Assembly: GCF_003129465.1 (NCBI RefSeq) | Contig: NZ_QFFF01000001.1 | Span: 2,341,501-2,405,500 of the forward strand | DNA: 64,000 nucleotides | Origin: Sphingosinicella humi | GTDB lineage: Bacteria; Pseudomonadota; Alphaproteobacteria; Sphingomonadales; Sphingomonadaceae | Direction: 5' to 3' | In this document: piece by piece, positions 13,832 through 59,780 of the stretch | Layout: every line of letters starts with the position of its first letter | How positions within the stretch are numbered: the first letter of the stretch is position 1 | Translations under genes and position numbers: made by a program | Notes under the pieces: model-generated | What the model saw: the letters and a program-made list of their open reading frames with translations, nothing else | Told to the model about the DNA's origin: nothing | Databases searched by the model: none

Positions 13832-14773
13832 TCAGCCTCCTCGCGGCACGCCGAGCTCGTCGGCGGCGCGGTTGAGCTGGGCCGTGGTCGCGGCATCCCC
13901 CTCGAAGGCCGCCAGGGCCGAACGAAGGGCGTCCGAGGCGGCGTCCGTCTCGCCGAGGACCATGCGGGACCGCATCAGCCTTATCCAGCCGGCCGCATCC
14001 CTGGGGTTCGCTTCCAGGCGCCGGGCGAGGCCCTCGACCATGCCCTCCACCATCGCGTCCTGCTGGCTGGGCGGGATCGAGGAGGCGGCGGCCATCTGCT
14101 CGGGCGTGGGGCCGGGGATCGCGGCGGTGGCCGTCGATCCTCCCGAAGGCGGCGGCATCCGGCCGGCGATGTCGATATCCTGCTTCTCGGCCGCCAGCTG
14201 GATGGTGCGGCGAAGATCCACCTCCCAGGGCGCGCCCGCGGGCGTGTCCTTGAGCAGCGCGATCCAGTCGTCGATCGCGGCGGCATGCTGGCCCTGAAGG
14301 TCCTTCTGGACGGCGATGAAGTAGCGGGCGCGCGGGTCGGCCGGGTCGATCGCCAGCGCGCGCCGGAAGGCCGCGGCGGCTTCCGGCGAGACTTGGGTGC
14401 TGGCGGTCTGGAGCGCTTCGCCGAGCGAGGACCAGTTTTCCGCCTTGTCGGGTTCGATCTCGGCGGCGCGGCGATAGGCGGAGGCCGAACGCATCAAATC
14501 GCCGATCTCGAAATAGGACCAGCCAAGCATTCGCCAGCCCTCGGCATTGTCGGGGTCTTCGCGAAGCCGCGCCTCCAGGCCGGCGATCATCGTCTGGACA
14601 TCCGCCACCGGCTCGTCCGGCCTGACGTTTCCGTGGGGCGAGGCCTCCTTGGGGGCGCCGTCGCCCGACCGGTAGATGGCAACTCCAGCCGAAGCCGCGG
14701 CGATGATGCCGGCCGCGACGAGGGCGATAGTAGCCGTCTGCGGGCGCGATCCTGTGGACGAAGAAGCGGTCAT
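13832..14773 (-). CDS. CcmI/CycH-like TPR protein with N-terminal membrane anchor
   Basis: 313 residues: one N-terminal transmembrane helix (TIALVAAGIIAAASAGVAIY), then a periplasmic TPR region at about 55-165 (NAEGWRMLGWSYFEIGDLMRSA; KAENWSSLGEAL; DPRARYFIAVQ) and a C-terminal helical part with another TPR-like unit (DAAGWIRLMRSRMVLG). The pattern matches the C-terminal half of CcmH/CycH, the apocytochrome-c chaperone of the system I maturation machinery. No other ccm gene lies in the window, so this is either a detached ccmI or a paralogue. Its place just before a region coding for more than 25 heme c sites makes a helper role in cytochrome maturation attractive (inference). Confidence 0.75.
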   Translation of the reverse strand: MTASSSTGSRPQTATIALVAAGIIAAASAGVAIYRSGDGAPKEASPHGNVRPDEPVADVQTMIAGLEARLREDPDNAEGWRMLGWSYFEIGDLMRSASAYRRAAEIEPDKAENWSSLGEALQTASTQVSPEAAAAFRRALAIDPADPRARYFIAVQKDLQGQHAAAIDDWIALLKDTPAGAPWEVDLRRTIQLAAEKQDIDIAGRMPPPSGGSTATAAIPGPTPEQMAAASSIPPSQQDAMVEGMVEGLARRLEANPRDAAGWIRLMRSRMVLGETDAASDALRSALAAFEGDAATTAQLNRAADELGVPRGG

Positions 14774-14921: not shown

Positions 14922-17357
14922 ATGACCGCGGCATTCGACATCGCCATTGTCGGATCGGGGCCTGCCGGCCTCAGCGCCGCCGCGCGCGCGGCCGAACTGG
15001 GCATCAGCCACGTGCTGCTGGAGAAGACCGACCATCTCTCCGACACCATCTACAGATATCAGAAGGGCAAGCATGTGATGGCGACGCCGAGCCAGCTGGT
15101 GCTGCGCTCGGACATGGATTTCGAGGCCGGCAAGCGCGAGAAGGTGCTGGGCACCTGGGACACGCAGGCGGCGGGCCGCAAGATCAATGTGAAGCTCAAC
15201 GCCGAGGTGAAGGCGATCGCCGGCGACAGGGGCGATTTCACCCTCACGCTGACCAATGGCGAGGCGATCAAGGCGGGCAGCGTCATCCTCGCCATCGGCA
15301 CCCAGGGCAATCCCAACAAGATGCGCTGCGAGGGCGGCGACCTGCCGCATATCCAGTATCAGCTCGACGATCCCGGCGAATATGTGGACGAGCATATCAC
15401 CGTGATCGGCTCGGGCGATGCGGGGATCGAGAATGCGCTGGGCCTCGCCGCCGACCCGGAACAGGGCAATGTCGTCACCATCCTCAATCGCGGCACCGAT
15501 TTCGCGCGGGCGAAGGGCGCCAACGTCAAGCTGCTGATGGAGGCGCGCGACGGCGGCCGCATCAACGTGATGACGGAGACCACGCCGTCGAAGGTGGAGC
15601 CGGGCTGGCTCGTCCTCGACACCCGCGACGGCGAGCAGAGGATCCGCTGCGACCGCATTATCGCGCGCATGGGCTCCGCGGCGCCGCGCGCCTTCGTCGA
15701 AGGTTGCGGCATCGAATTCACCAGCGAGGATCGCGAGGCCTTTCCGAAGCTGTCGCCCAGCTTCGAGAGCACCGAGCCGGGCATCTACGTCATCGGCGCG
15801 CTGGCCGGCTATCCGCTGATCAAGCACTGCATGAACCAGGGCTATGACGTCGTCGAGTTCATCAACGGCAACCGCGAGCTGAAACCCGCCGACGAGCCGA
15901 TCCTGGAGGCCAAGTTCAGGGGCCTGCCGGGCCGCCGGCCGGTCGACGAATGGCTGGAGTTCCTGCGCGCCAACGTCACCATCCTCAATGAGCTTTCGCC
16001 GCTTCAGATGCGCGAGTTTATGCTCGACAGCGAGGTCCGCTATTATCCCGCCGGAACGGTCGTGTTCGAGCGGAACGAGCCCGGTTCGTCGCTCTTCACC
16101 ATCGCCGACGGCTCGGTGTTGGTCGAGGTCAATCCGAAGGACCCGTCGATCACCGTCCCGATCGGGAAAGGTTCCATATTCGGGGAGGTCGGTCTCATCT
16201 CCGGCCGCCGCCGCGGCGCCACCATCCGCACGGCCGAAGATTCGATCCTGGTCGAAGTCTCCCGCACGGCGGCGCTGAAGCTGATGGCGACCGTCCCGGC
16301 CGCCAAGCGCGCCATCACCCGCATCTCGACGGAGCGGCAGCTTCTGCAGATGTTCGGCTCGGGCCTGACCGCGGACGACCTCGCGGAAGTGCTCGAGACG
16401 GCCGAGATCAAGCGGGTGCGTGCCGGCGAGGCGATCATCACCGAAGGCGAGGAAGGCTACGACATCTACGTCATCCGCCAGGGCTCGATGGTGGTCGAGA
16501 AGTCGATTGGCGGGAAGCCGGTCTTCCTCTCCTATCTCCCCGCCGGCTCCTATGTCGGCGAGATGGCGCTGATCGACGGCGGCCGCCGCACGGCCACGGT
16601 GCGCGCGGCGATCAAGTCGGAGGTGATCAAGCTCGACGGCGACGCCTTCCGCCGCCTGCTGGCGAAGAAGCCGCAGCTCAAGATCAAGGCCGAGACCGAC
16701 ATGGCCTCGCGCAAGGCGCTTACCAGCTTCGTCGAATCCAAGAAGGACGGCTTCGAAGGCGTGGTCGACATGTACAGCTCGGTCGCCAACTTCCTGGTCG
16801 AGAACGGCATCGGCGAGGCCACTGACGTCCTCCTCATCGACGAGAATCTCTGCGTCGGCTGCGACAATTGCGAGAAGGCGTGCGCGGACAGCCATGAGGG
16901 TCTCAGCCGGCTCAACCGCGAGGCGGGCAAGACCTACGCGCACCTTCATGTGCCGACCTCTTGTCGCCACTGCGAGCATCCGCACTGCATGGCCGACTGC
17001 CCGCCCAATGCGATCCACCGCGGGCCGGACGGCGAGGTTTTCATCGACGACAGCTGCATCGGCTGCGGCAACTGCCAGCGGAACTGCCCCTATGGCGTCA
17101 TCCGCATGGACAAGGTTCCGCCAAAGAAGCCAAACCTGCTCGCCTGGCTGATCGCCGGCCTTGGGCCCGGCCCGGGCGAGCCGCCCAAAAAGTGGACCGA
17201 GGCGCGGGTTTCGCCGGAGACGCCCAAGAAGGCCATCAAGTGCGACATGTGCGCGGGGATTTCGGGCGGCCCGGCCTGCGTGCGCGCGTGCCCGACCGGC
17301 GCCGCCATCCGCGTCGCGCCCGAGCAGTTCCTCTCGGTCGCGAGGCTGGGGGAGTGA
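14922..17357 (+). CDS. Flavoprotein / double cyclic-nucleotide-binding / four [4Fe-4S] fusion protein
   Basis: 811 residues in three modules. Residues 1-325 are a two-Rossmann FAD/NAD(P) oxidoreductase of thioredoxin-reductase type (VGSGPAGLSAAARAAELG at the start and ITVIGSGDAGIENA near 155) but without a CxxC redox pair. Residues 347-470 and 473-600 are two CNB domains, each with a phosphate-binding cassette (FGEVGLISGRRRGATI; VGEMALIDGGRRTATV) retaining Glu and Arg. From about 640 there is a DmsB/NrfC-like ferredoxin region with four Cys groups: CVGCDNCEKAC, CRHCEHPHCMADC, CIGCGNCQRNC and CDMCAGISGGPACVRAC. No signal peptide, so cytoplasmic. It heads an operon with a b-type membrane protein, a decaheme protein and a phosphodiesterase; it likely feeds electrons from NAD(P)H into the membrane under cAMP or cGMP control (inference). 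AGGGGAGGGTGA precedes the ATG. Confidence 0.9.
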   Translation: MTAAFDIAIVGSGPAGLSAAARAAELGISHVLLEKTDHLSDTIYRYQKGKHVMATPSQLVLRSDMDFEAGKREKVLGTWDTQAAGRKINVKLNAEVKAIAGDRGDFTLTLTNGEAIKAGSVILAIGTQGNPNKMRCEGGDLPHIQYQLDDPGEYVDEHITVIGSGDAGIENALGLAADPEQGNVVTILNRGTDFARAKGANVKLLMEARDGGRINVMTETTPSKVEPGWLVLDTRDGEQRIRCDRIIARMGSAAPRAFVEGCGIEFTSEDREAFPKLSPSFESTEPGIYVIGALAGYPLIKHCMNQGYDVVEFINGNRELKPADEPILEAKFRGLPGRRPVDEWLEFLRANVTILNELSPLQMREFMLDSEVRYYPAGTVVFERNEPGSSLFTIADGSVLVEVNPKDPSITVPIGKGSIFGEVGLISGRRRGATIRTAEDSILVEVSRTAALKLMATVPAAKRAITRISTERQLLQMFGSGLTADDLAEVLETAEIKRVRAGEAIITEGEEGYDIYVIRQGSMVVEKSIGGKPVFLSYLPAGSYVGEMALIDGGRRTATVRAAIKSEVIKLDGDAFRRLLAKKPQLKIKAETDMASRKALTSFVESKKDGFEGVVDMYSSVANFLVENGIGEATDVLLIDENLCVGCDNCEKACADSHEGLSRLNREAGKTYAHLHVPTSCRHCEHPHCMADCPPNAIHRGPDGEVFIDDSCIGCGNCQRNCPYGVIRMDKVPPKKPNLLAWLIAGLGPGPGEPPKKWTEARVSPETPKKAIKCDMCAGISGGPACVRACPTGAAIRVAPEQFLSVARLGE

Positions 17358-17369
17358 GATGCCTACATT

Positions 17370-17463
17370 CGTCATTCCGGCGAAAGCCGGAACCCAAGAA
17401 CACCGGCGGCACACATGTTTCGCAGGCGGCGTTCCTGGATCCAGGATCAAGTCCGGGATGACG
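17370..17463. repeat. REP-like inverted repeat, family A
   Basis: Arms CGTCATTCCGG (17370-17380) and CCGGGATGACG (17453-17463) are inverted with one mismatch, and inside them lie CGAAAGCCGGAACCC and GGATCCAGGATC. The same unit (CGTCATTCC...GGGATGACG with a GCGAAAGC stem) recurs at 25199, 46734 and 51028. It separates the 811-aa fusion gene from the membrane gene at 17497, leaving little room for a promoter, so it may act as an mRNA hairpin between two genes of one operon. Confidence 0.8.
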
Positions 17464-17496
17464 AAGGAAAGGGCGAGGGGGGTCGTGCCCTAGATC

Positions 17497-18372
17497 ATGG
17501 CGAGCAGGGGGATATCGCGGACGGAGCTGAAGGAGGGGGCGAGCCATGAGGGCTTTCTCCGCCATAAGCGATTCCGCTGGCTGAAGATCGCGCTGGGGCT
17601 CTCGCTGCTGAGCCTCCTCGTCTACGCCTTCACCGACGTTCAGCCGCGCCACAATGGCGGCAGCTGGCTCGGCTATACGCTCGGCACGATCGGGGCGCTG
17701 CTGATCCTGTGGCTGACCCTGCTGGGCCTGCGCAAGCGGGCGATGACGCGGGGACGCTGGTCGCTGAAGGCCTGGACGTCGGCCCACGTCTATCTGGGCT
17801 TGTCGCTGATCGTCGTCGCGACGCTCCACACCGGATTCCAGTTCGGCTGGAACGTCCATACGCTCGCCTACGCGCTGATGATGCTGGTCATCGCGTCGGG
17901 CATCTACGGGATCTCCGTCTACGCGACGCTGCCGCAGGCGCTCAGCGACAATCGCGCGGAAATGACCAAGCCGCAGATGATCGACGCCGTCGCCAAGCTC
18001 GATCGGCAGCTTCGCACGGCGGCGCAGCCGCTTACGGTGGACGATACCGAGATCGTCACTCTCTCGCTGGACGATGACGTCTTCGGCGGCGGCCTTATTC
18101 GGCGCCTGTCGGGCCGTTATCCGCGCTGCGGCACCGCGCGGGCGCTGCGCGAGCTCCAGGATCGACTGGCCGTGTCCTCCGGCCGGGAAGCGGAGGCACT
18201 CGAGACGGTGACGGACCTGCTGGAGCGCAAGCTCGCCGCCCTCTCACGCATCCGGCGGCAGCTGAAGCTCCGCGCGATGCTGGAGGTCTGGCTCTACATC
18301 CATGTGCCCATCACCTTCGCCCTGATCGCGGCGCTCAGCGCCCACATCCTCAGCGTCTTCTTCTACTGGTGA
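17497..18372 (+). CDS. Predicted di-heme b-type membrane protein
   Basis: 291 residues with five or so membrane segments: LALGLSLLSLLVYAF-type helix at 30-46, 58-78, 93-112, 122-145, a soluble part at 150-255, and a C-terminal helix at 264-290. His97 and His111 are 14 apart in one helix, and His269 and His283 are 14 apart in the last, the spacing for two stacked b hemes as in cytochrome b561/NarI/DMSO-reductase-type quinol proteins. I do not recognise a named family. The start is the first ATG after an in-frame TAG and has no clear Shine-Dalgarno. Lying between an iron-sulfur fusion protein and a membrane-anchored decaheme cytochrome, it is the natural electron bridge across the inner membrane (inference). 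Confidence 0.75.
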   Translation: MASRGISRTELKEGASHEGFLRHKRFRWLKIALGLSLLSLLVYAFTDVQPRHNGGSWLGYTLGTIGALLILWLTLLGLRKRAMTRGRWSLKAWTSAHVYLGLSLIVVATLHTGFQFGWNVHTLAYALMMLVIASGIYGISVYATLPQALSDNRAEMTKPQMIDAVAKLDRQLRTAAQPLTVDDTEIVTLSLDDDVFGGGLIRRLSGRYPRCGTARALRELQDRLAVSSGREAEALETVTDLLERKLAALSRIRRQLKLRAMLEVWLYIHVPITFALIAALSAHILSVFFYW

Positions 18373-18382
18373 GCGGGGCGCT

Positions 18383-20173
18383 ATGACCTTCCTCCTCCGC
18401 CAGATTTCGCACAGCGCCGAAGGCCGCGAGATCGTCCGCCCCTCGCGCGTCGAGGCGGACCGGCTGACCATCGGCCGCAGCCCCGAATGCAATATCCACC
18501 TCACCGATCTTGCCGTCGCGCTTCACCATGCGACGGTCGAGCGGACGGGCGAGCGCCTCAGGCTGACGAGCGAGAAGGGGCTCTATGTCGAGCTGAACGG
18601 ACGCAAGACCCAGGCCGGCGTCATTGAGGTGGCGGCCGGCGGCGAGATCCGCATCGCCAGCCACCTCATTCGAATAGCCGCCGCCCCGGCGGATGCCGAC
18701 GAGATCGCGATCGACATTGAGCGGGTGGGGGAGGTCGGCGGCGGCAAGTCGCGATCCGCCGAGCGGATGTTCTCGCTGGCTTCGGTCATGCCGAGCAAGC
18801 GGGCGGCGGCCTGGGGGCTGATCGCGCTCGTCCTCGCTCTCTTCCTTGCCTGGCCGATCAAGGGCTATTTCGACCGCCAGCAGGAAACGGAGGCGGTGCA
18901 GCGCTTTCACGCCGACCAGATGTGGTCGAGCGGCAAGCTGTCGCTCGCCCATACGGCTCTCGAGAATGACTGCCAGGCCTGCCATGTGAAAGCGTTCGAG
19001 GCCGTGCGGGACGCCGCCTGCAAGAACTGCCATACCGGCATTCACGACCATGCCGACCCGTTCCGCCTGGCGCGCGCTCAGCCGGACCTCACCACCTGGG
19101 GCAAGGTCGAGCTCGCCTTCAAGGAGACGTTCGACATCCCGCCGGGCCGCTGCGTCGAGTGCCATACCGAGCATGAAGGCGCGACGCGGATGCCGGCGAC
19201 CGCGCAGCGCTTCTGCAGCGATTGCCATGCCACGCTGGAGGATCGCCTGCCCGACACAAAGCTCGCCAATGCCGGCGATTTCGGCACCGCCCATCCGGAG
19301 TTCCAGCCGGCGCTCATCACCAACTGGGACGCCGACCGGCCGGTCGTGAGGCGCGTGTCCCTCGCGCAGAAGCCGCGCGAGGACAGCAACCTAAAATTCC
19401 CGCACGACCTGCATTTGTCGAAGACCGGCGGGGTGCCTCAGATGGCGCGGCGGCTGGACGGCGAGTTCGGCTTCGGTCAGGCGCTCGAATGCAAGGACTG
19501 CCACGTGCCGACGCCCGACGGCGTCCGCTTCCAGCCGATCAACATGGAGGAGGATTGCGGCATGTGCCACAGCCTCGCCTTCGATCGGGTGGGCGGGACC
19601 GTCCGCACCCTGCGGCATGGAGAGCCGCAACAGGTCATCGCCGACCTCCGCACCCTCTATGGCGGCCGCTCGGGCGGTTCATGGAACGGTGCGGACCGGC
19701 GCCGGCCCGGCCTCCATGGCGCTCCGGCAGGTTCGGTGAGTGCGGCGCAGGCGATCCGGGCGACCTTCTCGCCCGGCGGCGCCTGTTACGATTGTCACCA
19801 GGTGGTCGCACCGCCGCCGGGATCGCTTGCCTTCGATATCCGGCCGGTCGCCTTCCCGATGCGCTATATGCAGAAGGGCTGGTTCGATCATCGCGCGCAC
19901 CAGACGGAGGACTGCGCCAGCTGCCATCTGGCGGAGAAGTCGGCCGCGGCCAGCGACCTGCTGCTGCCCGATCTCGCCAGCTGCCGCGAATGCCATGGCG
20001 GTGAAAGCGCCCGCGCCGAGGTGCCGTCGAGCTGCGCCATGTGCCACGATTATCATATGGACGAAGGCGCGCCTTCCATGCTGATCAGGGAGCGGGTGCG
20101 CGGTAAGAAGAAAGATACGGTTATAGCCGATACCGCCAAGCTGCGGCGCGCCGCCGCCGCCGAAAGACGATAG
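18383..20173 (+). CDS. FHA-domain, membrane-anchored decaheme cytochrome c
   Basis: 596 residues. Residues 1-98 form a forkhead-associated-type domain with the GRSPECNIHLTD...HHATVE core, predicted cytoplasmic. A transmembrane helix at 141-160 (AAAWGLIALVLALFLAWPIK) follows, and the remainder would be periplasmic, with ten CxxCH heme sites: CQACH (197), CKNCH (213), CVECH, CSDCH, CKDCH, CGMCH, CYDCH, CASCH, CRECH and CAMCH. FHA domains bind phosphothreonine or act as protein docks, so this fuses a signalling module directly to a multiheme wire. It starts ten bases after the di-heme b gene and ends seven bases before the phosphodiesterase gene: one operon. The cytochrome part resembles the c3/c7 superfamily; the full architecture is not one I know as a named protein. 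Confidence 0.88.
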   Translation: MTFLLRQISHSAEGREIVRPSRVEADRLTIGRSPECNIHLTDLAVALHHATVERTGERLRLTSEKGLYVELNGRKTQAGVIEVAAGGEIRIASHLIRIAAAPADADEIAIDIERVGEVGGGKSRSAERMFSLASVMPSKRAAAWGLIALVLALFLAWPIKGYFDRQQETEAVQRFHADQMWSSGKLSLAHTALENDCQACHVKAFEAVRDAACKNCHTGIHDHADPFRLARAQPDLTTWGKVELAFKETFDIPPGRCVECHTEHEGATRMPATAQRFCSDCHATLEDRLPDTKLANAGDFGTAHPEFQPALITNWDADRPVVRRVSLAQKPREDSNLKFPHDLHLSKTGGVPQMARRLDGEFGFGQALECKDCHVPTPDGVRFQPINMEEDCGMCHSLAFDRVGGTVRTLRHGEPQQVIADLRTLYGGRSGGSWNGADRRRPGLHGAPAGSVSAAQAIRATFSPGGACYDCHQVVAPPPGSLAFDIRPVAFPMRYMQKGWFDHRAHQTEDCASCHLAEKSAAASDLLLPDLASCRECHGGESARAEVPSSCAMCHDYHMDEGAPSMLIRERVRGKKKDTVIADTAKLRRAAAAERR

Positions 20174-20180
20174 GCCGCCG

Positions 20181-21035
20181 ATGCTGATAGCGCAGATTAC
20201 CGACATCCATCTGGGCTTCGAGCCGAACAATCCCGCCGAGTTCAACAGGAAGCGCCTCGATCGGACGCTGAGGGCGCTGTGCGCGATGACGCCGCAGCCC
20301 GACCTGCTGCTCGCCACCGGCGACCTGTCCGACAGCGGAGACGACGAGGTCTCCTATCGCCGCCTCAAGAGCGCGCTGGCCGCCTGTCCCTTTCCCGTCT
20401 GGTTCTGCATGGGCAATCACGACGACCGTGCGGCTTTCCTTAAATATTTCCCGCACGTGCCCTCGGCCGACGGCTTCATCCAATATGTGATCGAGGAATT
20501 CCCGGTCCGCATCCTGATGCTCGACACGCTGGAGGAAGGGCGGCACGGCGGCGGCTATTGCGAGACGCGCGGCGCCTGGCTGAAGGCGCGGCTTGCCGAG
20601 CAGCCGGAGCGGCCGACCATCCTCGTCCTCCATCACCCGCCGATCGAGACGGGCCTCAGCTGGATGACCGAAAATCCGGAGGCGGAGTGGGTGCGGCGTC
20701 TTCGCTCGATCGTCGAAGGTCATCCCAACATCGTCGCCATGCTGACCGGCCATCTCCACCGCGCGATCACCACCCAATGGGCGGGGACGACGCTCGCCGT
20801 CTGTCCCTCGACGGCGCCGCAGGTGGCGCTCGATCTGGCTGAAATCGATCCCGACAAGCCGGACGGTCGCCCGATGATCGTGGCCGATCCACCGGGCTAC
20901 GCCCTCCATTATTGGAACGGCGAGGGGCTCATCTCCCACTACGACACCGCCGAGGACCACACCGTCCTCGCCCGTTACGAACCGGCCCTTCAGCCGCTGG
21001 TGCAGATGCTCGTGGCGGAGAGGAAGGACGCCTAA
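20181..21035 (+). CDS. CpdA-like metallophosphoesterase (cyclic-nucleotide phosphodiesterase)
   Basis: 284 residues with all motifs of class III cyclic-nucleotide phosphodiesterases: D-x-H in ITDIHLGF (D8, H10), GDLSDSG, GNHDDRAAF, VLHHPPIETG and TGHLHRAIT. Two metal ions are bound in this fold, and cAMP is the usual substrate of CpdA/Rv0805-type enzymes; the specificity here is inferred. It is the last gene of the operon whose first protein has two cyclic-nucleotide-binding domains, so it may reset the signal that those domains read. A pair of hairpins follows the stop codon. Confidence 0.88.
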   Translation: MLIAQITDIHLGFEPNNPAEFNRKRLDRTLRALCAMTPQPDLLLATGDLSDSGDDEVSYRRLKSALAACPFPVWFCMGNHDDRAAFLKYFPHVPSADGFIQYVIEEFPVRILMLDTLEEGRHGGGYCETRGAWLKARLAEQPERPTILVLHHPPIETGLSWMTENPEAEWVRRLRSIVEGHPNIVAMLTGHLHRAITTQWAGTTLAVCPSTAPQVALDLAEIDPDKPDGRPMIVADPPGYALHYWNGEGLISHYDTAEDHTVLARYEPALQPLVQMLVAERKDA

Positions 21036-21037
21036 TT

Positions 21038-21080
21038 CCTCCCCACGATTCGTGGGGAGGGGGACCACCCGAAGGGTGGT
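21038..21080. repeat. Hairpin repeat, family C, at the junction of convergent operons
   Basis: CCTCCCCACGA-TTCGTGGGGAGG (21038-21060) is a near-perfect hairpin, followed at once by ACCACCCGAAGGGTGGT (21064-21080). A second copy of the first hairpin stands at 38089-38113 behind another + strand gene. It could act as a bidirectional transcription stop between the two convergent operons, though no T-run follows. Confidence 0.65.
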
Positions 21081-21224
21081 GGAGGGGTGACTGCCCTGAG
21101 GGTGGCGCGGTTCGCGCCCCAACCGAAACCCGAACGAGACTGGCGCGTCCGACGAGCCATCCCCCTCTCGGCGCCGTTACCATGCTCCGCATGATCCCCC
21201 TCCCCAGCAAAAGCTAGGGAGGAT

Positions 21225-24200: not shown

Positions 24201-25313
24201 GCGGTCGTTGGCGTAGACGACATGGCAGCCGGCGCAGCCCGACTGACGATAGTCGCCGGGCTGATCGTTGGTCCCCATGAACCACATGAACGGGTCGTTG
24301 AGGCGCGTCTTGTGGATGTTGAGGATGGGGATGGCGACGCGGAGCCCGGTGCCGGGGCCGCGGTTCGACTGGCGGATGTCGGGCCGGCCTGATTCCTCGA
24401 GGCGCTGGATGGAGCCGGTGGGCGAGGGGAGGCCGATCTCCGGGAACTGCGTATTGATGGTCCGGCCGCCGCGCTCGAAGACGCGAAAGATGTCGGCCGG
24501 CGGAATGACATGCCAGGTGGGGAGGGGGTAGAGCTCGGCGAGCACACCGCGCGCTTGCTGCTTTTCGCTGAGCGTGCCGTCCGGGCCGGTCGGCGAGACG
24601 ATCTTCGCCGGCTCGCCGGTGCGGGTGTAAGCCTCTCCGAAGATGTAATTCTTCATCGGCGCGATGCCGTTATTGTAGGCCGCGCCGCCCATGAACATCG
24701 CGCCGGTCGCCATCAGCGATCGTTCGGCGGCCTCGATCACTTCGATATGGCAGGCCCCGCAGCTTTCGCGGGCCACGCGATAGTCGGACGGGTTGACGAA
24801 GCGGATATATTCCGGCGCCTCGCGGTTCAGCAAAGTGTAGCTACGCGTCGGGTTGGCGCTCGACGGCCAGTGCCAGCTTTCGGGATATTTCGGGAGCACA
24901 TGCGCCTGGTTGCGCGCCGCGACATAGGCGGGGGCGTTGTGGTTCGAGACGTCGGTGGCGAAGACGCTCGCATTGCCGCCATGGCAGTCGGTGCAGCCGA
25001 GCACGACCGCGGGCGATTTGTGCATGGTCTTGGCGTCGCTCGCCGTGTGGCAGCTGACGCAGCCGGCGCTCTTCGCGTCGGCCATGTCCCATTCCTGCGT
25101 GCGCGGCGCCGGCTCGGCCCGGACGAGGCTGTAGTCGCGCTCGACGGGCTTTTCTGTCTCGGCAGCGATTAGGGGGGCTGCGAGAGTAGCCATCACAACC
25201 GTCATCCCCGCGAAAGCGGGGATCCCGCTTTTCTTCATCCAAGCTGCAAAGAGAGAAGAAGCGGGATTCCCGCTTTCGCGGGAATGACGGAAGAAGGTGG
25301 ACAGCCGACGCAT
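21225..25313 (-). CDS. 1362-residue decaheme cytochrome c with C-terminal LVIVD propeller repeats
   Basis: Ten heme c sites lie between about residues 85 and 870: CVSCH, CTDCH, CGACH, CAGCH, CMNCH, CADCH, CKDCH, CFTCH, CGGCH and CSDCH. From about 975 to 1270 follow repeats of the LVIVD type (for example AYITAAAGLVVVDLDDP, LWVTDAEGLKLIDVTR, AYVAGGPEGLVIVNVTNP), which fold as a beta-propeller in surface proteins. The N-terminus is odd: a REP-type repeat (25199-25290) lies within codons 8-38, so the annotated start yields RHSRESGNP and GIPAFAGMT. From Met26 (25238) the sequence MKKSGIPAFAGMTVVM followed by ATLAAPLIAA reads as a usable signal peptide. The ATG at 25313 overlaps the stop of the barrel gene. 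Likely periplasmic or cell-surface electron carrier; function unknown. Confidence 0.87.
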   Translation of the reverse strand: MRRLSTFFRHSRESGNPASSLFAAWMKKSGIPAFAGMTVVMATLAAPLIAAETEKPVERDYSLVRAEPAPRTQEWDMADAKSAGCVSCHTASDAKTMHKSPAVVLGCTDCHGGNASVFATDVSNHNAPAYVAARNQAHVLPKYPESWHWPSSANPTRSYTLLNREAPEYIRFVNPSDYRVARESCGACHIEVIEAAERSLMATGAMFMGGAAYNNGIAPMKNYIFGEAYTRTGEPAKIVSPTGPDGTLSEKQQARGVLAELYPLPTWHVIPPADIFRVFERGGRTINTQFPEIGLPSPTGSIQRLEESGRPDIRQSNRGPGTGLRVAIPILNIHKTRLNDPFMWFMGTNDQPGDYRQSGCAGCHVVYANDREPRHSLLYAKYGRDGQTATVDPTIARQMEEGHGEGERETIISEWTRRPGELAQHTRLDVVTTTKEKGHPIRHVFTRAIPTAQCMNCHMHQPNIFLNSYLGYTMWDYESDAPLMWPEKQKYPTAEEVHKTLERNPEGAGPRGKWSDLDFLRNVYDDVNPKAKHTQFADYHGHGWNFRAVFKRDREGNLLDADGNIVPPDDPEKFRRAGEGEFVEPGVNPGKAVHMMDIHAEKGMQCADCHFSQDSHGTGFIYGEVANAIEIACKDCHGTAKDYPTLLTSGPAAPPKGNNLALIRNEDGRRRFEWMESDDGRRVLIQRSIVDPELEWEVSLVKDSVDRDHPSFNMKSARAKLMSKAGAETGQFTFGTGVADTDLAHKPDEMACFTCHLSWTTSCGGCHLPIEANWKTSSHKYDGIETRNFATYNPQVARDQMFQLGVHQTTKGNIVAPVRSSSALVLSSTNLNRERIYIQQPPISAIGFSSQAFAPHFPHTVRKTETKTCSDCHLSEANDNNAIMAQLLLQGTNFVNFVGLHAWVGLEDGFEAVRVTEWEEPQAVLGSYLHRYAYPDYWRLHVERNGRELIEWTRGKTFDSKLSGETQALEQFANVVQGTDGAVRCLQLRGEYMFVAEGKGGFRVYDVASIGNKGLSERIVTAPFSPLGHDARVKTKNATCMALPTNQSIAPERNTPAMREANQEQPFHPIYNYAVVTDADEGLILVDVNTFADGEPRNNDLKRAVTWNEGGVLTDARHVTLAGHYAYITAAAGLVVVDLDDPLRPRHVATVPLRDARSSALQFRYLWVTDAEGLKLIDVTRMDQPSLIPEATVPLADAHGLYVARTYAYVAGGPEGLVIVNVTNPERPSLYQKVTLDGRMNDVRDVIVGSTNASLFAYVADGRNGLKVLQLTSPDSQPNFYGFSPAPKPELIAWARTPAPALGLSKGLDRDRAVDETGGQIAVFGRLGSRPFNRAEMERLFLNRRGFVYRVSDTGTFADWVQ
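25199..25290. repeat. REP-like inverted repeat, family A, inside the 5' end of a cytochrome gene
   Basis: Two 32-base arms (25199-25230 and 25259-25290), nearly perfect complements (CCGTCATCCCCGCGAAAGCG and its inverse CGCTTTCGCGGGAATGACGG), enclose a 28-base loop. The element falls in frame within the first 38 codons of the decaheme/LVIVD gene and seems to supply part of its signal sequence. As RNA it would form a long hairpin directly after the start codon. Confidence 0.88.
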
Positions 25314-27670
25314 CAGAAGGTCAGCACCGCGTTGAACAGGACCGAATAATAGACATCGTCGCGGTCGCTGTTGGCGAAGAGGTCCTTGAAGCCGTCGCCG
25401 GGGACGAGCGCCGCCGCCGAGGCCCGAAGCACGATGTTCTGGGTCATCTTCGGCCGCCAGATGGTGGCGACGGAGAGGTCGAAGCCGATGTCCTTGGCGA
25501 TGCTGCCTTCGTTGCGCAGCTCCTTGAGGACGGCCGTGTCCTCGAACCAGAGGTGATTGGCGTTGGCGCTGATGCGGAATTCGGGGGTCAAGTCCGCGTC
25601 GACGCCGACGCCGGCGAGGATCGTGCCGGGATTGTTGAAATTCGACTGGCCCTGCTCCTTGGAGGAACGGAGCGAATTCAAAATGCCGTTGCGACCGTTG
25701 ATCGAGACGGCGCGGCCGCCGCCGGCGAAGGGAATGGTCTGGCGGATCCAGTAGCTGGTGTCGGCGCCGGCGAAGATCGGGTTTTCGAAGATCGTGTCGA
25801 AGCCCGCTTCGGTCCCGTTATGGGGGTCGCTGTCGCCGCTGGCGTAGAGGAAGGAGCCGCGGAAGCGGAGCCAGTTATAGTCGTAGCTCGGCTCGGCGGC
25901 GAAGAACCAGGCGCGGATATCGGATTCCTCGCCGGTGAAGATGCTGTCCCGGTCGCGGCCGAAGGCGCCATAGGCCTGCGCCGAGAGGTTGATGCGACCG
26001 ATCCGCCCGTCGGCGGCATAGCCCAGATAGAAGACGTCATAGTCGCGCGCCCGCAGGTTCCCGATCAGCGCCGGGCGGACGGGGAAGCCATTGTCGTCGA
26101 CCTCGATCTCGCCCTTCTCGCGGTTCGCGTTCCAAGTGAGGCTGAGCTGGCTGGTGAGGCCGACGAAGGGAAAGTCCTGACGGTAGACATTGGCGGTGAC
26201 GACCCAGTCGTCGCGCGGCGTCTGCGTCACATCGTTGAGGCCGCTGTTGGTATCCTTTTCCAGCCGCCAGAAGCCGGCGAGATTATACTGCCAGCGATTA
26301 TTGTCGCGGTTGCCGAACAGGCGGAAGCCGAGCTGCTGGTCGTTGAACAGGAAGCCCCGGAAATCGGACTGGAAAGGCTGGATGCCGGCGCGCAGGGAAT
26401 CGAAGTCGTAGCGATCCGAGACGTTGCGGATGTGATAGTCGACGAAGGCTTCCTGCACGCCCAGGAAATGGTCCAGGCGATCGGTGCCCTTGCTCGGCTC
26501 GACGAACAGCACGCGCCGCTCGGACACGTCGACATAGTTGACGTTGTAGGCGAGCGTCAGCCGGTATTCGACGTCCGGCGGCTTGTAGGCGGTCGAACCC
26601 TTGATCAGCGACACGCTGCCGATGAAGGTCTGGGCCAGGACGAGGCTGTCATTCTTGCCGAAGACGTCGATGCTGCCCGGCCGATCGGTCGTCTGGACGC
26701 CGACGGGGATGGGGAAGGTGCGCGGCTCCACCACCGTGTCGGAAATGGCGTTGACGACGAAGAACCAGTCGTCACCTTGGAGGCCGAGGAATTTGGGCGT
26801 CCTGCATTTGGGGAGCCCGGCCTCCCGCCGCCGCGCCTGCTCCGCCTCGGTCGGGATGCAAAGCGGACGATCGCCCTTCAGCGTATTCTGGTGATAGGGG
26901 TCCCACCAGCGTTCCTTGACGATGCCGAGCGTCTCGATCAGGCGCCAGCGGTCCGGCACCGGGATCTGGTCCGTCGGAAAGGCTTCCGGCGGCGGGGAGC
27001 GGAGGGCACCCTCATTGGTCTGCGTCACCTCCGGCGGAAGCTCGCGCTGCGGGACGCCGGGGCGGCGACGGCCGTCGAGCAGCGGGTCGTCGGCGCTGGT
27101 GCCGGCCGGCGGCGCCTCGGTCGAAACCTGCGCCGTTACGGGCAGCACCATGGGATCGACAGCGGCGCTCTCGTCCCAGCTCGACTGAGAGGCCGGCAGC
27201 AGGAGGCCGGGCGGAATGTCGAAGGCGGTCCGTGTCGTTGCGGGAGGTTGCGCATTCGCTTCCGCCAGCCGGACCGGACTCGCATCCGGCGCCGGGAGAT
27301 CGATCTCGATGCTGGCAAGCTGGAGCCTGGCTTCGATCCGTTCCGGGATGATCGGCTTGAGGGCGAGCGGTTCGCCTTCACCAAGGGACGCCAGCATCCT
27401 CTCGCGCCGCTCGCGAAGGACATCGGCGATCTGATCGACATAGACGCGCGGATCGTAATCGCGCTCCTTGGGCGTGGCCGCCGGCAGGGCCTGCGCCATC
27501 GTCAGCAGCAGGGGCGGCGGGGGCAGGGCGCTCTGCATGGTGAGGAGCAGCGTGCCGTCCGCTTCGGGATCGACATTCGGCGGCGGCGCCGCGATCACCA
27601 AGGTCTGCGGATCGATGTCGGCTCCGCCCAACGACGCGACGAGTTGAATGAGGGGGGCGGAGAGCTGCAC
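25313..27670 (-). CDS. Outer-membrane beta-barrel protein of the multiheme cluster
   Basis: 785 residues. The first 250 are Pro/Ala-rich and look unstructured; from about 255 on (PDRWRLIETLGIVKERWWDPYHQN) the sequence alternates polar and hydrophobic residues with frequent aromatic girdles (YRLTLAYNVNYVDVS; QLGFRLFGNRDNNRWQYNLAGFW; YDVFYLGYAADGRIG) and ends in Phe (LFNAVLTF), as outer-membrane barrels do. I do not recognise a named porin family. No signal peptide is visible. The GTG start lies nine bases after, and in the same frame as, the TAG of the HbpS-like gene, so its export may depend on that upstream product, on readthrough, or on a start I cannot see. Its neighbours suggest a conduit for electrons or substrate across the outer membrane (inference). 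Confidence 0.78.
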   Translation of the reverse strand: MQLSAPLIQLVASLGGADIDPQTLVIAAPPPNVDPEADGTLLLTMQSALPPPPLLLTMAQALPAATPKERDYDPRVYVDQIADVLRERRERMLASLGEGEPLALKPIIPERIEARLQLASIEIDLPAPDASPVRLAEANAQPPATTRTAFDIPPGLLLPASQSSWDESAAVDPMVLPVTAQVSTEAPPAGTSADDPLLDGRRRPGVPQRELPPEVTQTNEGALRSPPPEAFPTDQIPVPDRWRLIETLGIVKERWWDPYHQNTLKGDRPLCIPTEAEQARRREAGLPKCRTPKFLGLQGDDWFFVVNAISDTVVEPRTFPIPVGVQTTDRPGSIDVFGKNDSLVLAQTFIGSVSLIKGSTAYKPPDVEYRLTLAYNVNYVDVSERRVLFVEPSKGTDRLDHFLGVQEAFVDYHIRNVSDRYDFDSLRAGIQPFQSDFRGFLFNDQQLGFRLFGNRDNNRWQYNLAGFWRLEKDTNSGLNDVTQTPRDDWVVTANVYRQDFPFVGLTSQLSLTWNANREKGEIEVDDNGFPVRPALIGNLRARDYDVFYLGYAADGRIGRINLSAQAYGAFGRDRDSIFTGEESDIRAWFFAAEPSYDYNWLRFRGSFLYASGDSDPHNGTEAGFDTIFENPIFAGADTSYWIRQTIPFAGGGRAVSINGRNGILNSLRSSKEQGQSNFNNPGTILAGVGVDADLTPEFRISANANHLWFEDTAVLKELRNEGSIAKDIGFDLSVATIWRPKMTQNIVLRASAAALVPGDGFKDLFANSDRDDVYYSVLFNAVLTF

Positions 27671-27679
27671 CGGCGTCGC

Positions 27680-29656
27680 CTATTTGCCCTGGCAGACGTT
27701 CTGCGCGCTGGTGTCGAGGAAGGGCGCGAACGGGCAGTTCACGTAGCGCAGCCTCACCTGGGCATCGCCAAGGTCGACGACGACCTGGTCGGCGCGGATG
27801 GCAGGGTCGGCATTGCCGATGCCGCCGATCCTGAGGCCGCCCTCGTGCAGCCCGAGGAAGCTGATCATGTCGTCCTGGTCGATGCCGTCGCCGGAGACGC
27901 CGATGCCGCCGACCAGCTGGTTGCCGCGAAAGATCGGAACGGAACCGGGAAAGATCTGGATGCCGTTCTCCAGCGGGTTCTGCCCCGTCGCCACGTCGGG
28001 CGCCTGGGTGCAGCGGCGCGGCGTATCGGCTCCGGCGCCGAGGACGAAGGCGGCGTGCTGGCGGATATTGGCCTCGACCAGCGCCGACTGGAGTCCGGTG
28101 GAGAAGGGATTGAACTCCGTGATCGGGCGCGAGAAGGGTCCGTGCGGCCGGCCGAGCTCGCCGTCGGGAAAGAAGGGTCGCGAGAGGTTGCCACCGGCTC
28201 GATCGGAAAAGGCGAACTGGCCGGTGAGCGCCGACGGATCGCCGAGGAAAGCCCTCGCCGCCGCCACATACATGCTGACGTCCGGATCGGGATTGGCCTG
28301 GAGCGACCGGGCGGCGCGGGCGCTGGACAGGAAGGTGGCCGTGCGCGCCTTCTGCAGCGAAACGTCGATGCCGAAGATCGGCGCGTCGGGCGCGCGGACG
28401 ATACCCAGCACCTCGCCATGGGTATCGACCAGCGAGATGGAGACCTGGGCGCGGCTGTCCAGCGGCCGCCGGATCTGCGCGCGGGCGCGGCTCATGATCT
28501 TGAACGCTTCCTCCAGAACCGCCTCCACCTCGGCGCGCGTGAGGGGCTGGGAAACGTCGCCGCCGTCGGTGGCGCCGCGGATCGGGTAGCGGTTGGCGCC
28601 GGCGCCGTTGGTGAGGATGAAGGCGTCCGGATTGTCGAATTCGCCCGCCGTGGCGGCGCGGATGCCGGACGCCTCGGTCCCGTAGGCGCGGCCGGCGATG
28701 AGCCCGCTCGTGCTGTCATAATAGCCGCGAACCGAGGTGAGGGCGCCCGCCTGGCCGTCGATAGCCGAGAAGGCCAGGGCGCTGGCCGGGTTGCTGAGGA
28801 GGTCCGCCCCGGCCGCGTCGGTGAAGCGCAGGCTGGTGCCGTCCACCGTGATGCGGTTGGCGCGGATGGCTTCGGGCGCGGCGAATCCCGTCGTGGCCGC
28901 CAGCGCGATGATCTCTTCATCGTCCTTGTCGACGTCCTGGACCTCGGGGTCGAAGCCGTAGACGCCGTCGGCCATGACGCCGACGCCGCCGACCAGCACG
29001 CCATTCTTGTAGAGCGGCAGCCCGCCGGGATCGGCGGAAAGGCCGAGCGGCGAGCGCTTGGGGCCGATGAAACCGTCCGAGCCGGTGTTGCCGTTGAAGC
29101 GTGCAGCCAGATCGGAGCAGGGGAGCTGGCTGAACTGAACGCCGAACAGCGGTCCGCTTTCCAACCCCTGCGTCGCTGCGGAGGGGGGGAAATGCTCCTG
29201 CACGATCATCGACGCGGTGCGGGTCGAGAAGGCATTGCCGCCGGAGGAGAGATAGGCGCCGGTGATCGCCTTGGCGATGGCGCCGGCGACGGCGGCCGGA
29301 AGGTCGACGCCCTGGAGGTCGTGCGTGCTGCCATTGGGGCCGCGCGGCACGAACAGGCGCTGGTTCGCCCCGTTCATCGTGAACACGGCCAGGATGTTGC
29401 CGACGCGATCAGAGACGGCGATGGTCGCGGGACGCTTGCGGGCGTTCGCCTCGGCGACCGCCTGGGCGATGATGCGGCCGACATCGGCGGAGCTGAGCGC
29501 TTCGCGCGCCGGAACATCGTAAAGGCGGGTGGGCGTCGGCGCGGGCGTGGGGGTCGGCGTTGGCGTCGGCGTCGGGGTCGCGCTGCCGCCGCCGCCTCCA
29601 CAGGACGCGACCAGCAGCGAGGCGATGGCGAGCAGACTGGCGGCGGAATGGCGCAT
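27680..29656 (-). CDS. Tandem HbpS/GlcG-domain lipoprotein
   Basis: 658 residues. A lipoprotein signal ends in SLLVASC (Cys19), followed by Gly-rich and (Pro-Thr)n linkers to about residue 43. Two GlcG/HbpS-type (DUF336) domains follow: the first with SSADVGRIIAQAVAEANAR and ATIAVSDRVGNILAVF, the second from about 370 with LTRAEVEAVLEEAFKI and VSISLVDTHGEVLGIVR. Each shows the family's late segment (GGVGVMADGVYG; GGIGVSGDGIDQDD). This family includes heme-binding sensors and glycolate-utilisation proteins of unclear role; here the cytochrome context favours heme binding. Anchored by lipid to a membrane. Its ATG shares a base with the stop of the pentaheme gene, so they are coupled. Confidence 0.85.
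   Translation of the reverse strand: MRHSAASLLAIASLLVASCGGGGGSATPTPTPTPTPTPAPTPTRLYDVPAREALSSADVGRIIAQAVAEANARKRPATIAVSDRVGNILAVFTMNGANQRLFVPRGPNGSTHDLQGVDLPAAVAGAIAKAITGAYLSSGGNAFSTRTASMIVQEHFPPSAATQGLESGPLFGVQFSQLPCSDLAARFNGNTGSDGFIGPKRSPLGLSADPGGLPLYKNGVLVGGVGVMADGVYGFDPEVQDVDKDDEEIIALAATTGFAAPEAIRANRITVDGTSLRFTDAAGADLLSNPASALAFSAIDGQAGALTSVRGYYDSTSGLIAGRAYGTEASGIRAATAGEFDNPDAFILTNGAGANRYPIRGATDGGDVSQPLTRAEVEAVLEEAFKIMSRARAQIRRPLDSRAQVSISLVDTHGEVLGIVRAPDAPIFGIDVSLQKARTATFLSSARAARSLQANPDPDVSMYVAAARAFLGDPSALTGQFAFSDRAGGNLSRPFFPDGELGRPHGPFSRPITEFNPFSTGLQSALVEANIRQHAAFVLGAGADTPRRCTQAPDVATGQNPLENGIQIFPGSVPIFRGNQLVGGIGVSGDGIDQDDMISFLGLHEGGLRIGGIGNADPAIRADQVVVDLGDAQVRLRYVNCPFAPFLDTSAQNVCQGK
29526..29580. 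repeat. Low-complexity GGCGTC/GGGGTC tract coding a Pro-Thr linker
   Basis: A run of six-base units (GGCGTCGGC, GGGGTCGGC and variants) encodes the (PT)n linker behind the lipid-attachment site of the HbpS-like lipoprotein. Such tracts can gain or lose units by slippage without loss of frame. Confidence 0.7.
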
Positions 29657-31038
29657 CAGCGAAGGCTCCTGATCGCGGACGCCGCCCGGCCGAGGCTCGC
29701 GCGGAATTCGCGAGGCCGGTAGGCGTTGGGATCGCGCACCGCCCGATAGGCGGTGTTGAGGTCGCCGCGGATGGATTGGGCGGCGCCCGGCCCGACCGCG
29801 CCCATGTTCACGAGCGCCGACAACAGCGTGTCGGTCGCCATCACCGCCTGGACGCTGCCGGCATAGTCGGTGAAGCGGTCGGACACCGCTTCATGGGTGA
29901 TCGCATCGACGATGGCGAAGGCCTGGGCCGGGCCGAGATCGGCAGCGGCGAAGGCGTTGGCGAGGGCGCGGGCGCTGTCGCGGAGCGTGACTGCGGCGGC
30001 GACGGCGGCGGCGCGATCCTTGGCCATCGCCTGGTGGAAGGCGCGGCTGTCGCGAGTGAAGCGGTCGGCGAGGCTCGGCGCCACCACCTTCGCGGCGGCG
30101 GCCAGCATGATCATATTCTCGTCGTTATAGGGCGGCATGCCCTCCGGGATCGGGCGGCCGGGATTGTCGAGCGCGGTCGGCGCGAAGCGCGGGTCGTCGG
30201 AAATGGGACGATGGCAGCTGTGGCAGTCGAGGAAATAGAATTCCGGGAACATGCCTTCCATGCCGCGCCGGGCGTCGGCGAAGAGGCTGAGCGAGCGGTC
30301 GAGCGCCATGGCCTGGCCGACGGCCCACATCTTCACCGGGTTGGTCCGGCCCTTGCGGGCGGCATAATCGGCGTCTTCATTGTGATGCTGCTGGAGGGTC
30401 GAGAAGAGATCGAGCTCGAAGGCGATGCGCGGGTGGCCGGCCGCCATGATGCGATGGCTGACGAACTGGCCGGAGTCGGCCGAGCCGAAATGGCAGTCGA
30501 GACAGACGCTGGCGCGCGCCTTCGGATTGTCGAGCGGGATCATGCCGCGCGACACGTTGGCGGCGTGGTTCGCGCCCACGGCATAATGGCTGGAGAGCCA
30601 GCTGGAGGCGGCGCCGTGACAGGCCTCGCAGCCCACTCCGTCCGAGGTCTGGAAACGGGCGCCGCGCGATCCGCCGGCCGGGGTCGCATGGCAGCCGAGG
30701 CACATCGGCGCGCTCGTCGCCTCGCCGATGCCGAGCCGCTGGGCGATGGCGCGCGAGCGTGGCTCGGCCAGGACCTGCCAGGCGCGGCTATGCGCCCCCG
30801 ACGGGCTGGACGGGTCCTGCCAGATCATCAGCTCATCCTGGCGCACGATCTTGCCGTCGGCTTCGGAGCGGCCGTGGCAGGTGGTGCCGCCGCAAGTGGC
30901 GACGCCCACCACCGTTCGCCCCGCCGCGGTCTGCGCGGTGGCGACGGCGGCTTCGGGCCGGACTAGAAACAGGACGAGCAGCACGAGCGCGAGGCCCGCG
31001 GCTCCACAGATTATCGCCAGACTGCGATTGCGCCCCAT
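29656..31038 (-). CDS. Membrane-anchored pentaheme cytochrome c
   Basis: 460 residues. An uncleaved-looking N-terminal helix (LAIICGAAGLALVLLVLFLV, 7-26) anchors a periplasmic domain with five heme sites. The first is C49-GGTT-C54-H, a CX4CH spacing; the others are CLGCH, CEACH, CLDCH and CHSCH. Extra conserved His (SSHYAVGANHA, SHRIMAAGHPR, QQHHNEDAD) can serve as distal ligands, in a layout like cytochrome c554 and related multiheme proteins. The C-terminal third is helical with no heme sites. It is the first gene of the four-gene minus-strand operon, so it may take electrons from the inner membrane and hand them to the outer-membrane part (inference). Confidence 0.87.
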   Translation of the reverse strand: MGRNRSLAIICGAAGLALVLLVLFLVRPEAAVATAQTAAGRTVVGVATCGGTTCHGRSEADGKIVRQDELMIWQDPSSPSGAHSRAWQVLAEPRSRAIAQRLGIGEATSAPMCLGCHATPAGGSRGARFQTSDGVGCEACHGAASSWLSSHYAVGANHAANVSRGMIPLDNPKARASVCLDCHFGSADSGQFVSHRIMAAGHPRIAFELDLFSTLQQHHNEDADYAARKGRTNPVKMWAVGQAMALDRSLSLFADARRGMEGMFPEFYFLDCHSCHRPISDDPRFAPTALDNPGRPIPEGMPPYNDENMIMLAAAAKVVAPSLADRFTRDSRAFHQAMAKDRAAAVAAAVTLRDSARALANAFAAADLGPAQAFAIVDAITHEAVSDRFTDYAGSVQAVMATDTLLSALVNMGAVGPGAAQSIRGDLNTAYRAVRDPNAYRPREFRASLGRAASAIRSLR

Positions 31039-59708: not shown

Positions 59709-59749
59709 GGAGCGGCGGAAATGGTAGGGTTTTGGGGTGGTGTCAATGT

Positions 59750-59780
59750 CGAGTTCGCAGTTTTTTGGACCGAGTTCGCA
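59750..59780. repeat. 10-base direct repeats between tRNA-Cys and the integrase
   Basis: CGAGTTCGCA occurs at 59750-59759 and again at 59771-59780, 21 bases apart, that is two helical turns. Such evenly spaced repeats next to an integrase gene are often arm-type binding sites; no second copy was seen elsewhere in the window. The function is inferred. Confidence 0.4.

Follow-up and report, generated by a model that had tools for sequence, protein, structure and literature searches.

Two convergent operons at positions 14,922-31,038 of a 64,000-nucleotide stretch of the Sphingosinicella humi genome (NZ_QFFF01000001.1, 2,341,501-2,405,500; hereafter the window) encode an electron-transfer system that, judged from genome sequences, is real, co-inherited and widespread. 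Its inner half, a flavin/cyclic nucleotide-binding (CNB)/Fe–S fusion protein, a di-heme b membrane protein and a pentaheme cytochrome with four CXXCH motifs, is homologous to loci that resemble the putative porin–cytochrome cluster PCC4. Its outer half is distinct, and combines a decaheme LVIVD-repeat protein with an outer-membrane barrel and an HbpS-type lipoprotein. The seventh core gene encodes a decaheme cytochrome with an FHA domain. On balance, and with some reserve, we favor a model in which these proteins would form one trans-envelope path, gated by cyclic nucleotides, from NAD(P)H to the periplasm or outer membrane, ending in the enzyme-like LVIVD protein. Trans-envelope multiheme systems have mainly been studied in metal-respiring or iron-oxidizing bacteria. 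An equally elaborate system, with nearly fixed heme counts and CNB domains in its electron-entry protein, is carried here by ordinary bacteria such as sphingomonads, Steroidobacter, Haliea, Colwellia and Duganella. Some of these hosts can be cultured and manipulated, so that its function would be directly testable in a deletion strain.

Gene Content of the Locus

A first-pass annotation of this DNA had placed four open reading frames (ORFs) on the forward strand (operon A, 14922-21035) and four on the reverse strand (operon B, 31038-21225). All eight are confirmed at those places, the operons converging at a distance of 189 bases (Table 1), and the annotation's counts of 25 heme c sites, two predicted b hemes and 16 Fe–S cysteines hold as well. 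The window contains 27 CXXCH-coding patterns, compared with a mean of 2.33 and a maximum of 10 in 100 dinucleotide shuffles of the window, none of which reached 27; a chance origin of the heme motifs is thereby ruled out. Three cytochromes hold 24 of the 27 patterns (10 in 18383-20173, 10 in 21225-25313 and 4 in 29656-31038), and a single CX4CH motif in the pentaheme protein completes the 25 sites. Domain assignments are from Pfam and NCBIfam scans of the window proteins; lipobox, phosphate-binding cassette and YscD-like are used as common terms.

Table 1. Features of the locus, in window positions.
Feature	Position	Strand	Status	Basis and remarks
CcmH/CycH-kind TPR protein (cytochrome c maturation)	13832..14773	-	likely partner	divergent from operon A; PF23914, 81.7 bits (cut-off 42)
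Flavin/CNB/Fe–S fusion protein	14922..17357	+	core	YpdA-like FAD/NAD(P) domain, two CNB domains, 16 Fe–S cysteines; Pfam, NCBIfam
Di-heme b membrane protein (cytb)	17497..18372	+	core	predicted b hemes; PCC3/PCC4 membrane-protein kind
FHA-decaheme protein	18383..20173	+	core	degenerate FHA, one hydrophobic segment (141-159), decaheme domain; Pfam, hydropathy
CpdA/SpdA-like metallophosphodiesterase	20181..21035	+	accessory	PF00149
Decaheme LVIVD-repeat protein	21225..25313	-	core	1362-aa ORF; true start probably downstream of 25313
Inverted-repeat element	25199..25290			5' end of LVIVD ORF
Outer-membrane barrel	25313..27670	-	core	predicted 18 strands, AlgE-like
HbpS/GlcG-type lipoprotein	27680..29656	-	core	PF03928, 80 bits, three stretches
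Pentaheme cytochrome (4 CXXCH + 1 CX4CH)	29656..31038	-	core	N-terminal hydrophobic segment; PF13435 (Cytochrome_C554), 43 bits
Acetolactate-synthase-type ThDP enzyme	31273..32922	+	associated	divergent from operon B; start by eye; NF006187, 886 bits (cut-off 509)
Aldehyde dehydrogenase	33077..34543	+	associated	start by eye; PF00171, 465 bits

Two Operons, One System

We surveyed 149 Sphingomonadaceae genomes with one marker per operon, the FHA-decaheme protein for operon A (P0003) and the barrel for operon B (P0006). The first was found in 52 genomes and the second in 53; all 52 carry both, and the sole genome with operon B only (G022) is 67% complete. The association gives a Fisher p of ~1e-39, a value that, like our other co-occurrence tests, ignores phylogeny and is uncorrected for kinship. 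The draw includes two further members of the window's genus, G053 and G129, and neither carries either marker.

Could the two operons be unrelated neighbors that converge in the window by chance? They are not adjacent in 28 of the 52 genomes, the markers lying within 15 kb of each other in 24, at 15-60 kb in 4 and at more than 60 kb in 11, while the remaining 13 have them on separate contigs. Since different contigs can reflect assembly breaks, unlinking is clear in at least 16 genomes only, namely those 11 and the 5 of the 13 (G139, G087, G075, G031 and G119) in which both hits lie at least 30 kb from contig ends. The same genomes nevertheless carry both operons although these are unlinked, and most distant loci that hold all seven core genes have them in one co-directional cluster. 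We therefore reject independence, to which we give practically no credence, and the gene distribution confirms that operons A and B belong to one system. The first-pass annotation had proposed a single multi-gene electron-transfer system, and this is borne out within the family and far beyond it: in the co-conservation check the genes did not scatter independently in relatives.

Within the family, the four-gene block of operon B is complete in 35 of 37 loci inspected; in the other two, the absent gene coincides with a stretch or contig end. Among 33 loci inspected for operon A, the CcmH/CycH-type TPR gene lies beside the operon in 32 and, in the exception (G122), beside operon B. In a phylum-wide draw of 398 genomes, the barrel profile matched 12, four of them outside the family. 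Two of these (G513 and G505) have the seven core genes in one direction and one cluster, with one foreign gene between them in G513; a third (G298) shows the same one-direction cluster up to the contig end, the pentaheme gene not being detected. The G505 stretch has a G+C content of 37%.

A scan of a one-genome-per-species collection with the LVIVD alignment gave at least 594 confirmed stretches, in which one gene could count more than once. The best 80, all distinct, are the distant loci discussed below; many of their contigs end inside the cluster. The LVIVD gene is present in all 80, the barrel in 78, HbpS in 69, the FHA-cytochrome in 63, the fusion protein in 62, cytb in 61 and the pentaheme in 60. 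All seven genes occur in 43 of the 80 loci, co-directionally in 40 and in a common order in 38. Based on record titles, which supply the taxon names for these 80, the hosts include Colwellia, Thalassotalea, Haliea, Parahaliea, Steroidobacter, Alcanivoracaceae, Duganella, Tahibacter, a Nitrosomonas metagenome-assembled genome (MAG) and several Alpha- and Betaproteobacteria. One locus (L238) comes from a MAG titled Bordetella parapertussis; its cluster is common to environmental Betaproteobacteria, and the species name, known from the title only, is probably the assembler's label.

An Inner Half Related to PCC4-Like Loci

The fusion protein matches Pyr_redox, cNMP_binding (two stretches) and several 4Fe–4S families in Pfam. 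Its C-terminal 220 residues hold sixteen cysteines, a number shared by 97 of the 98 proteins counted. Among 97 fusion proteins, the glycines of the FAD GxGxxG motif are retained in 95, with gaps in the other 2, and a second Rossmann motif, GxGDA[AG], in nearly all. The arginine of the phosphate-binding cassette is retained in both CNB domains of all 97, and the glutamate in 96 (first domain) and 80 (second); the window protein has Glu and Arg in both domains, the pair that marks a cyclic-nucleotide receptor, and binding is predicted. The membrane protein has two WX3HX13H motifs in 96 of 96 orthologs, the window included, and SGXXG in 94 of 96; its Pfam signal for Ni_hydr_CYTB (25.4 bits) is under the cut-off of 30.1.

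The FHA-decaheme protein matches FHA and cytochrome c7/c3 in Pfam and carries 10 heme motifs in 94 of 97 orthologs and 9 in the other 3. The serine that contacts phosphothreonine in the SxxH motif is alanine in the window and is not among the five commonest residues at this position in the 97 rows, so the FHA domain is degenerate; the arginine of the GR motif is kept in 74 of the 97 rows and in the window protein. A role for this domain as a phosphothreonine reader is unsupported, given the replaced serine. The protein scores 29.9 bits against the YscD-type Pfam model, under the cut-off of 33.2. Against PF22113 (MtrC/OmcA-type) it reaches 31.2 bits for a cut-off of 30, over 31 residues only, the other two cytochromes falling below the cut-off.

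He et al. (2017) proposed PCC3 and PCC4 as putative porin–cytochrome clusters (PMC5566968). In their passages on these clusters, the membrane proteins of both clusters have in common an SGXXG motif, two WX3HX13H motifs and five predicted helices, and are proposed to bind two b hemes. PCC4 is described there with a porin and 4-, 5- and 10-heme cytochromes, its subgroup II having a pfam13247 Fe–S gene upstream of the membrane-protein gene, and the PCC3 cytochromes with medians of 34 and 21 heme sites and low-complexity repeats. Set against these passages, the window system shares with PCC4 both WX3HX13H motifs, SGXXG and, immediately upstream of the membrane-protein gene, a gene that matches PF13247 (43.7 bits, cut-off 26.2). 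Its cytochromes differ from those of PCC4 in having 10, 4 (plus one CX4CH) and 10 heme sites. With PCC3 it has the membrane-protein motifs in common, whereas its heme numbers (10/5/10) are nearly fixed and those of PCC3 far larger.

Of the 398 genomes, 30 matched the membrane-protein alignment, and 18 of these 30 gave no barrel match; we examined loci from 12 of the 18. In four (L279, L280, L283 and L287), a 566-607-aa homolog of the fusion protein's CNB/Fe–S part (E 2e-61 to 6e-47, in a small set) is followed by the membrane protein (7e-18 to 6e-12) and a 10-heme protein, and a cytochrome with 3-4 CXXCH motifs related to the pentaheme protein lies upstream (9e-23 to 2e-18). Pfam recognizes in L280 a CNB plus 4Fe–4S protein and, within the cluster, a separate FAD/NAD/2Fe–2S reductase. 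A 5-heme protein was found in two of the four (L280 and L287) and no porin was confirmed, so the PCC4 label for these loci is drawn from their composition. The FHA-decaheme profile scores their 10-heme proteins at 7e-22 to 6e-14; it scores the 21-24-heme PCC3-like proteins about equally, which makes this particular link weak and unspecific. In the PCC3-like loci (L281, L282 and L285) a membrane protein with two WX3HX13H motifs precedes a 21- or 24-heme cytochrome, and L284 and L286 are partial. Another three (L276-L278) carry no more than the fusion protein, cytb and the FHA-cytochrome; the flavin–CNB–Fe–S and membrane proteins are fused in one ORF of ~1120 aa in L276 and L278. Three genomes, G297 (76% complete), G181 and G149, have this gene set with no barrel match, which makes operon A resemble an electron-entry unit.

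The LVIVD, HbpS and barrel profiles found no match among the ORFs picked from the 12 loci, whose own porin is unconfirmed, and the PCC4-like loci showed no FHA, HbpS or LVIVD parts. The homologous inner half, together with the unmatched outer half, points to an apparently shared entry unit joined to distinct outer ends; the PCC4 link would thus amount to a parts list. The first-pass annotation had regarded the system as distinct and known conduit types as lacking FHA, CNB and HbpS parts. Distinctness stands for the outer half, the inner being apparently shared, and the absence of CNB is unsupported, since PCC4-like loci have a homologous CNB/Fe–S protein. With PCC4 represented by loci recognized from their composition, our verdict is that the system appears to be a PCC4-kind variant whose outer end differs. 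We found no description of this gene combination in the literature searched, a search to which most subscription journals and preprints are external; it yielded the work on PCC3 and PCC4, a methanogen study in which LVIVD is mentioned and a cave-metagenome study in which PCC4 is.

The homologous inner half bears on the direction of flow, since in the PCC4 model electrons pass from an extracellular donor to quinone (PMC5566968, passages on PCC4). By analogy, the LVIVD protein might oxidize an external donor such as Fe(II) or Mn(II), with electrons entering the quinone pool or NAD(P). The cytosolic end of the window system is, however, of flavin/NAD(P) type. Electron transfer from donors at the level of Fe(II) to NAD(P) runs uphill, and several named hosts of distant loci are known as heterotrophs. 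We consider inward flow unlikely.

A Putatively Enzyme-Like Cytochrome and a Predicted AlgE-Like Barrel

What distinguishes the outer half? All 117 LVIVD proteins counted have 10 heme motifs, and Pfam matches the window protein to LVIVD and c7/c3. Its best NCBIfam match is ExtM of the Geobacter Ext selenite/tellurite operon, at 71.6 bits far under the cut-off of 800. Across 89 loci it is the best conserved of six core proteins compared, with a mean pairwise identity of 0.64 (barrel 0.55, HbpS 0.53, fusion protein 0.53, cytb 0.45, FHA-cytochrome 0.33). That a protein of ~1300 residues is so much better conserved than the wire-like FHA-decaheme protein fits a catalytic rather than a passive role, and we infer from sequence conservation that it resembles an enzyme more than a surface wire. 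Its 5' end overlaps an inverted repeat with 32-nt arms (25199-25230 and 25259-25290) that are 94% complementary, which makes the true start uncertain. The element may supply part of the signal peptide; a relative (L126) has a similar-looking N-terminus.

The barrel was modeled with AlphaFold2 from 55 alignment rows (residues 181-785), giving 18 long strands with a predicted local distance difference test score (pLDDT) of 80.7 and a predicted template modeling score (pTM) of 0.81. In Foldseek, AlgE entries take ranks 1-15 (E 2e-16 to 2e-13), followed by chitoporin and OprD/Occ channels. The TM-score to AlgE reaches 0.71 by target length and 0.46-0.51 by query length, at 11-14% identity, and no alginate genes were recognized in the window operon. 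The window barrel has no Pfam match; Alginate_exp is reached at E 0.01 by 4 of the 55 barrel members, the window row not among them. Searches of solved structures with the LVIVD and barrel profiles returned nothing at E up to 1.

A barrel and multiheme cytochromes sharing an operon are also what MtrCAB, MtoAB and PioAB have in common with the window system, and one distant locus (L175) is titled as a biocathode isolate (title only). A classical conduit of the MtrAB/PioAB type, with a cytochrome threaded in the barrel and electrons delivered to minerals or electrodes, must therefore be weighed. The MtrB barrel has 26 strands, whereas the predicted fold has 18, with AlgE, chitoporin and OprD-type channels as its best matches and no MtrB among the 50 listed of 784. 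TIGR03508, for the MtrA type, gives only 17.6 and 18.6 bits for window cytochromes, its cut-off being 192. An MtrB-type conduit built on this barrel is thus not supported. With an 18-strand AlgE-like barrel, a cytochrome threaded inside is unlikely on the model and a channel for substrate or product is the better reading; the classical conduit as a whole seems to us improbable.

The HbpS lipoprotein of operon B has a lipobox-like LVASC in the window, and such a pattern occurs within the first 90 residues of 78 of 105 ortholog ORFs and in none of the other 27. Pentaheme proteins have four CXXCH and one CX4CH in 94 of 95 cases; the N-terminal segment taken for an anchor could be a signal peptide, by eye from gammaproteobacterial relatives.

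Cyclic Nucleotides and Signaling Neighbors

The phosphodiesterase matches Metallophos in Pfam (68.9 bits) and lies below the NCBIfam equivalog cut-offs for SpdA (136 bits, cut-off 400) and CpdA (92 bits, cut-off 225). It accompanies operon A in 33 of 33 family loci, ~17 kb further on in G072. It was found in 0 of the 80 distant loci within the stretch examined and was seen outside the family in G400 only, at 40% identity. The core therefore comprises seven genes and the phosphodiesterase is an addition, contrary to its earlier listing among the system's parts. The cyclic-nucleotide input suggested at the same time retains the conserved cassette arginines and, within the family, the adjoining CpdA/SpdA-like enzyme, and loses that enzyme as a core element.

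By sequence clustering, 20 of the 80 distant loci have a PP2C-like gene and 17 have a tandem-FHA gene, mostly directly after the pentaheme gene; Pfam confirmed PP2C in L178 and L197 and tandem FHA in L178 and L201 (example regions: L178, 14919-17062; L201, 15080-16874). A motif scan of the 80 loci returned one Ser/Thr-kinase-like gene, in L223, which Pfam confirmed. The distribution of CNB, PP2C and FHA indicates that genes for second-messenger or phospho-signaling recur near the system, with different parts in different groups. HbpS fragments aside, the non-core families in at least 5 of the 80 loci are PP2C, FHA, a small protein, a short-chain dehydrogenase and a CcmI-like protein (by look). 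The small protein, mostly of ~150 aa, is encoded between the FHA-decaheme and HbpS genes in 9 loci (e.g., L195, 5704-6153; L200, 5773-6222) and, in the two tested, has no Pfam match.

Proposed Mechanism

We propose the following model. Cytosolic NAD(P)H would reduce the FAD domain of the fusion protein, whose four [4Fe–4S] clusters would pass electrons to the di-heme b membrane protein. From there, electrons may flow through the membrane-anchored decaheme and periplasmic pentaheme proteins to the LVIVD protein, probably the terminal oxidoreductase, partnered by the heme-binding-type lipoprotein and the AlgE-like channel, which would let substrate or product cross the outer membrane. Cyclic nucleotide bound to the tandem CNB domains would set the rate of electron entry. 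More tentatively, and with more doubt than confidence, we speculate that the LVIVD protein is the terminal enzyme of an unrecognized, NAD(P)H-driven and second-messenger-controlled system in hundreds of aerobic proteobacterial species, reducing a compound that passes through the AlgE-type channel; control would be by cyclic nucleotides in most hosts, with an added PP2C/FHA pair in some Gammaproteobacteria.

The genes near operon B are consistent, circumstantially, with an outward path fed by NAD(P)H. An acetolactate synthase of at least 70% identity is found in 45 of 53 system-bearing genomes (G022 included) and in 5 of 96 others (G006, G008, G037, G084 and G121; Fisher p 4e-24). It lies within the stretch examined in 21 of the 37 operon-B family loci, and an aldehyde dehydrogenase (at least 70% identity) in 19. 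A gene that we take, by eye, to be glutamate-dehydrogenase-like occurs near the system in 7 loci of the family and, outside the family, in G400 and G513.

Several observations weigh against the model. The synthase is absent from 8 of the 53 system-bearing genomes, and only 8 of the 80 distant loci have matches to it (42-73% identity, some at 42-45%). The second CNB domain lacks the glutamate in 17 of 97 proteins, and in the first the Ala and Thr after the arginine are retained in 70 and 79 of 97 only. At the threshold used, hydropathy finds four segments in the window's membrane protein and three in that of G505, rather than five. The heme domain of the LVIVD protein was modeled poorly (pLDDT 51, pTM 0.47), so that an open heme site could not be demonstrated, and 14 non-motif histidines are invariant there in 50 rows, a number sufficient for bis-His ligation of ten hemes. 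Another donor could serve the flavin domain, or the path could run in reverse.

Other Neighboring Genes and Minor Features

A last alternative gives the outer half a different cargo: the AlgE-like barrel and HbpS lipoprotein would move heme or a polyanion, which the cytochromes would reduce. The AlgE fold and HbpS domains would suit such a role, as would the genes for two-partner secretion that adjoin operon B in the two annotated Sphingobium records, together with the ShlB-type matches in five family loci. The flavin–Fe–S–cytb–FHA unit, however, exists without a barrel match, and the recurrent non-core families of the distant loci are those listed above. Handling of heme or polymer strikes us as quite improbable.

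The two Sphingobium records encode a repeat-rich exoprotein (2092 or 2138 aa) and a ShlB/FhaC-type protein (L031, 33000-41153, on S. herbicidovorans pMSHV; L032, 32923-41126); these genes adjoin operon B, on megaplasmids. Near operon A, L031 also encodes another ShlB protein, along with a 2OG-Fe(II) oxygenase and a metallophosphoesterase. The five family loci with ShlB-type matches near operon B (G021, G107, G067, G147 and G075) show 48-60% identity. Two-partner secretion was rejected as a fixed part of the system: the exoprotein reaches only 29-43% outside Sphingobium, and many loci have neither gene.

Aldehyde-dehydrogenase matches occur in 7 of the 80 distant loci (25-76% identity); for the window enzyme, the NCBIfam equivalogs are all under their cut-offs. 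Between the fusion gene and cytb, a stretch at ~17365-17466 looks palindromic by eye and was not reported by the repeat search. Further along the window, at 59635-60841, a tRNA-Cys lies beside a phage-type integrase gene (59816-60841; PF00589, 52.6 bits), and G+C content dips to 0.569 over 60001-62000, possibly marking an integrated island.

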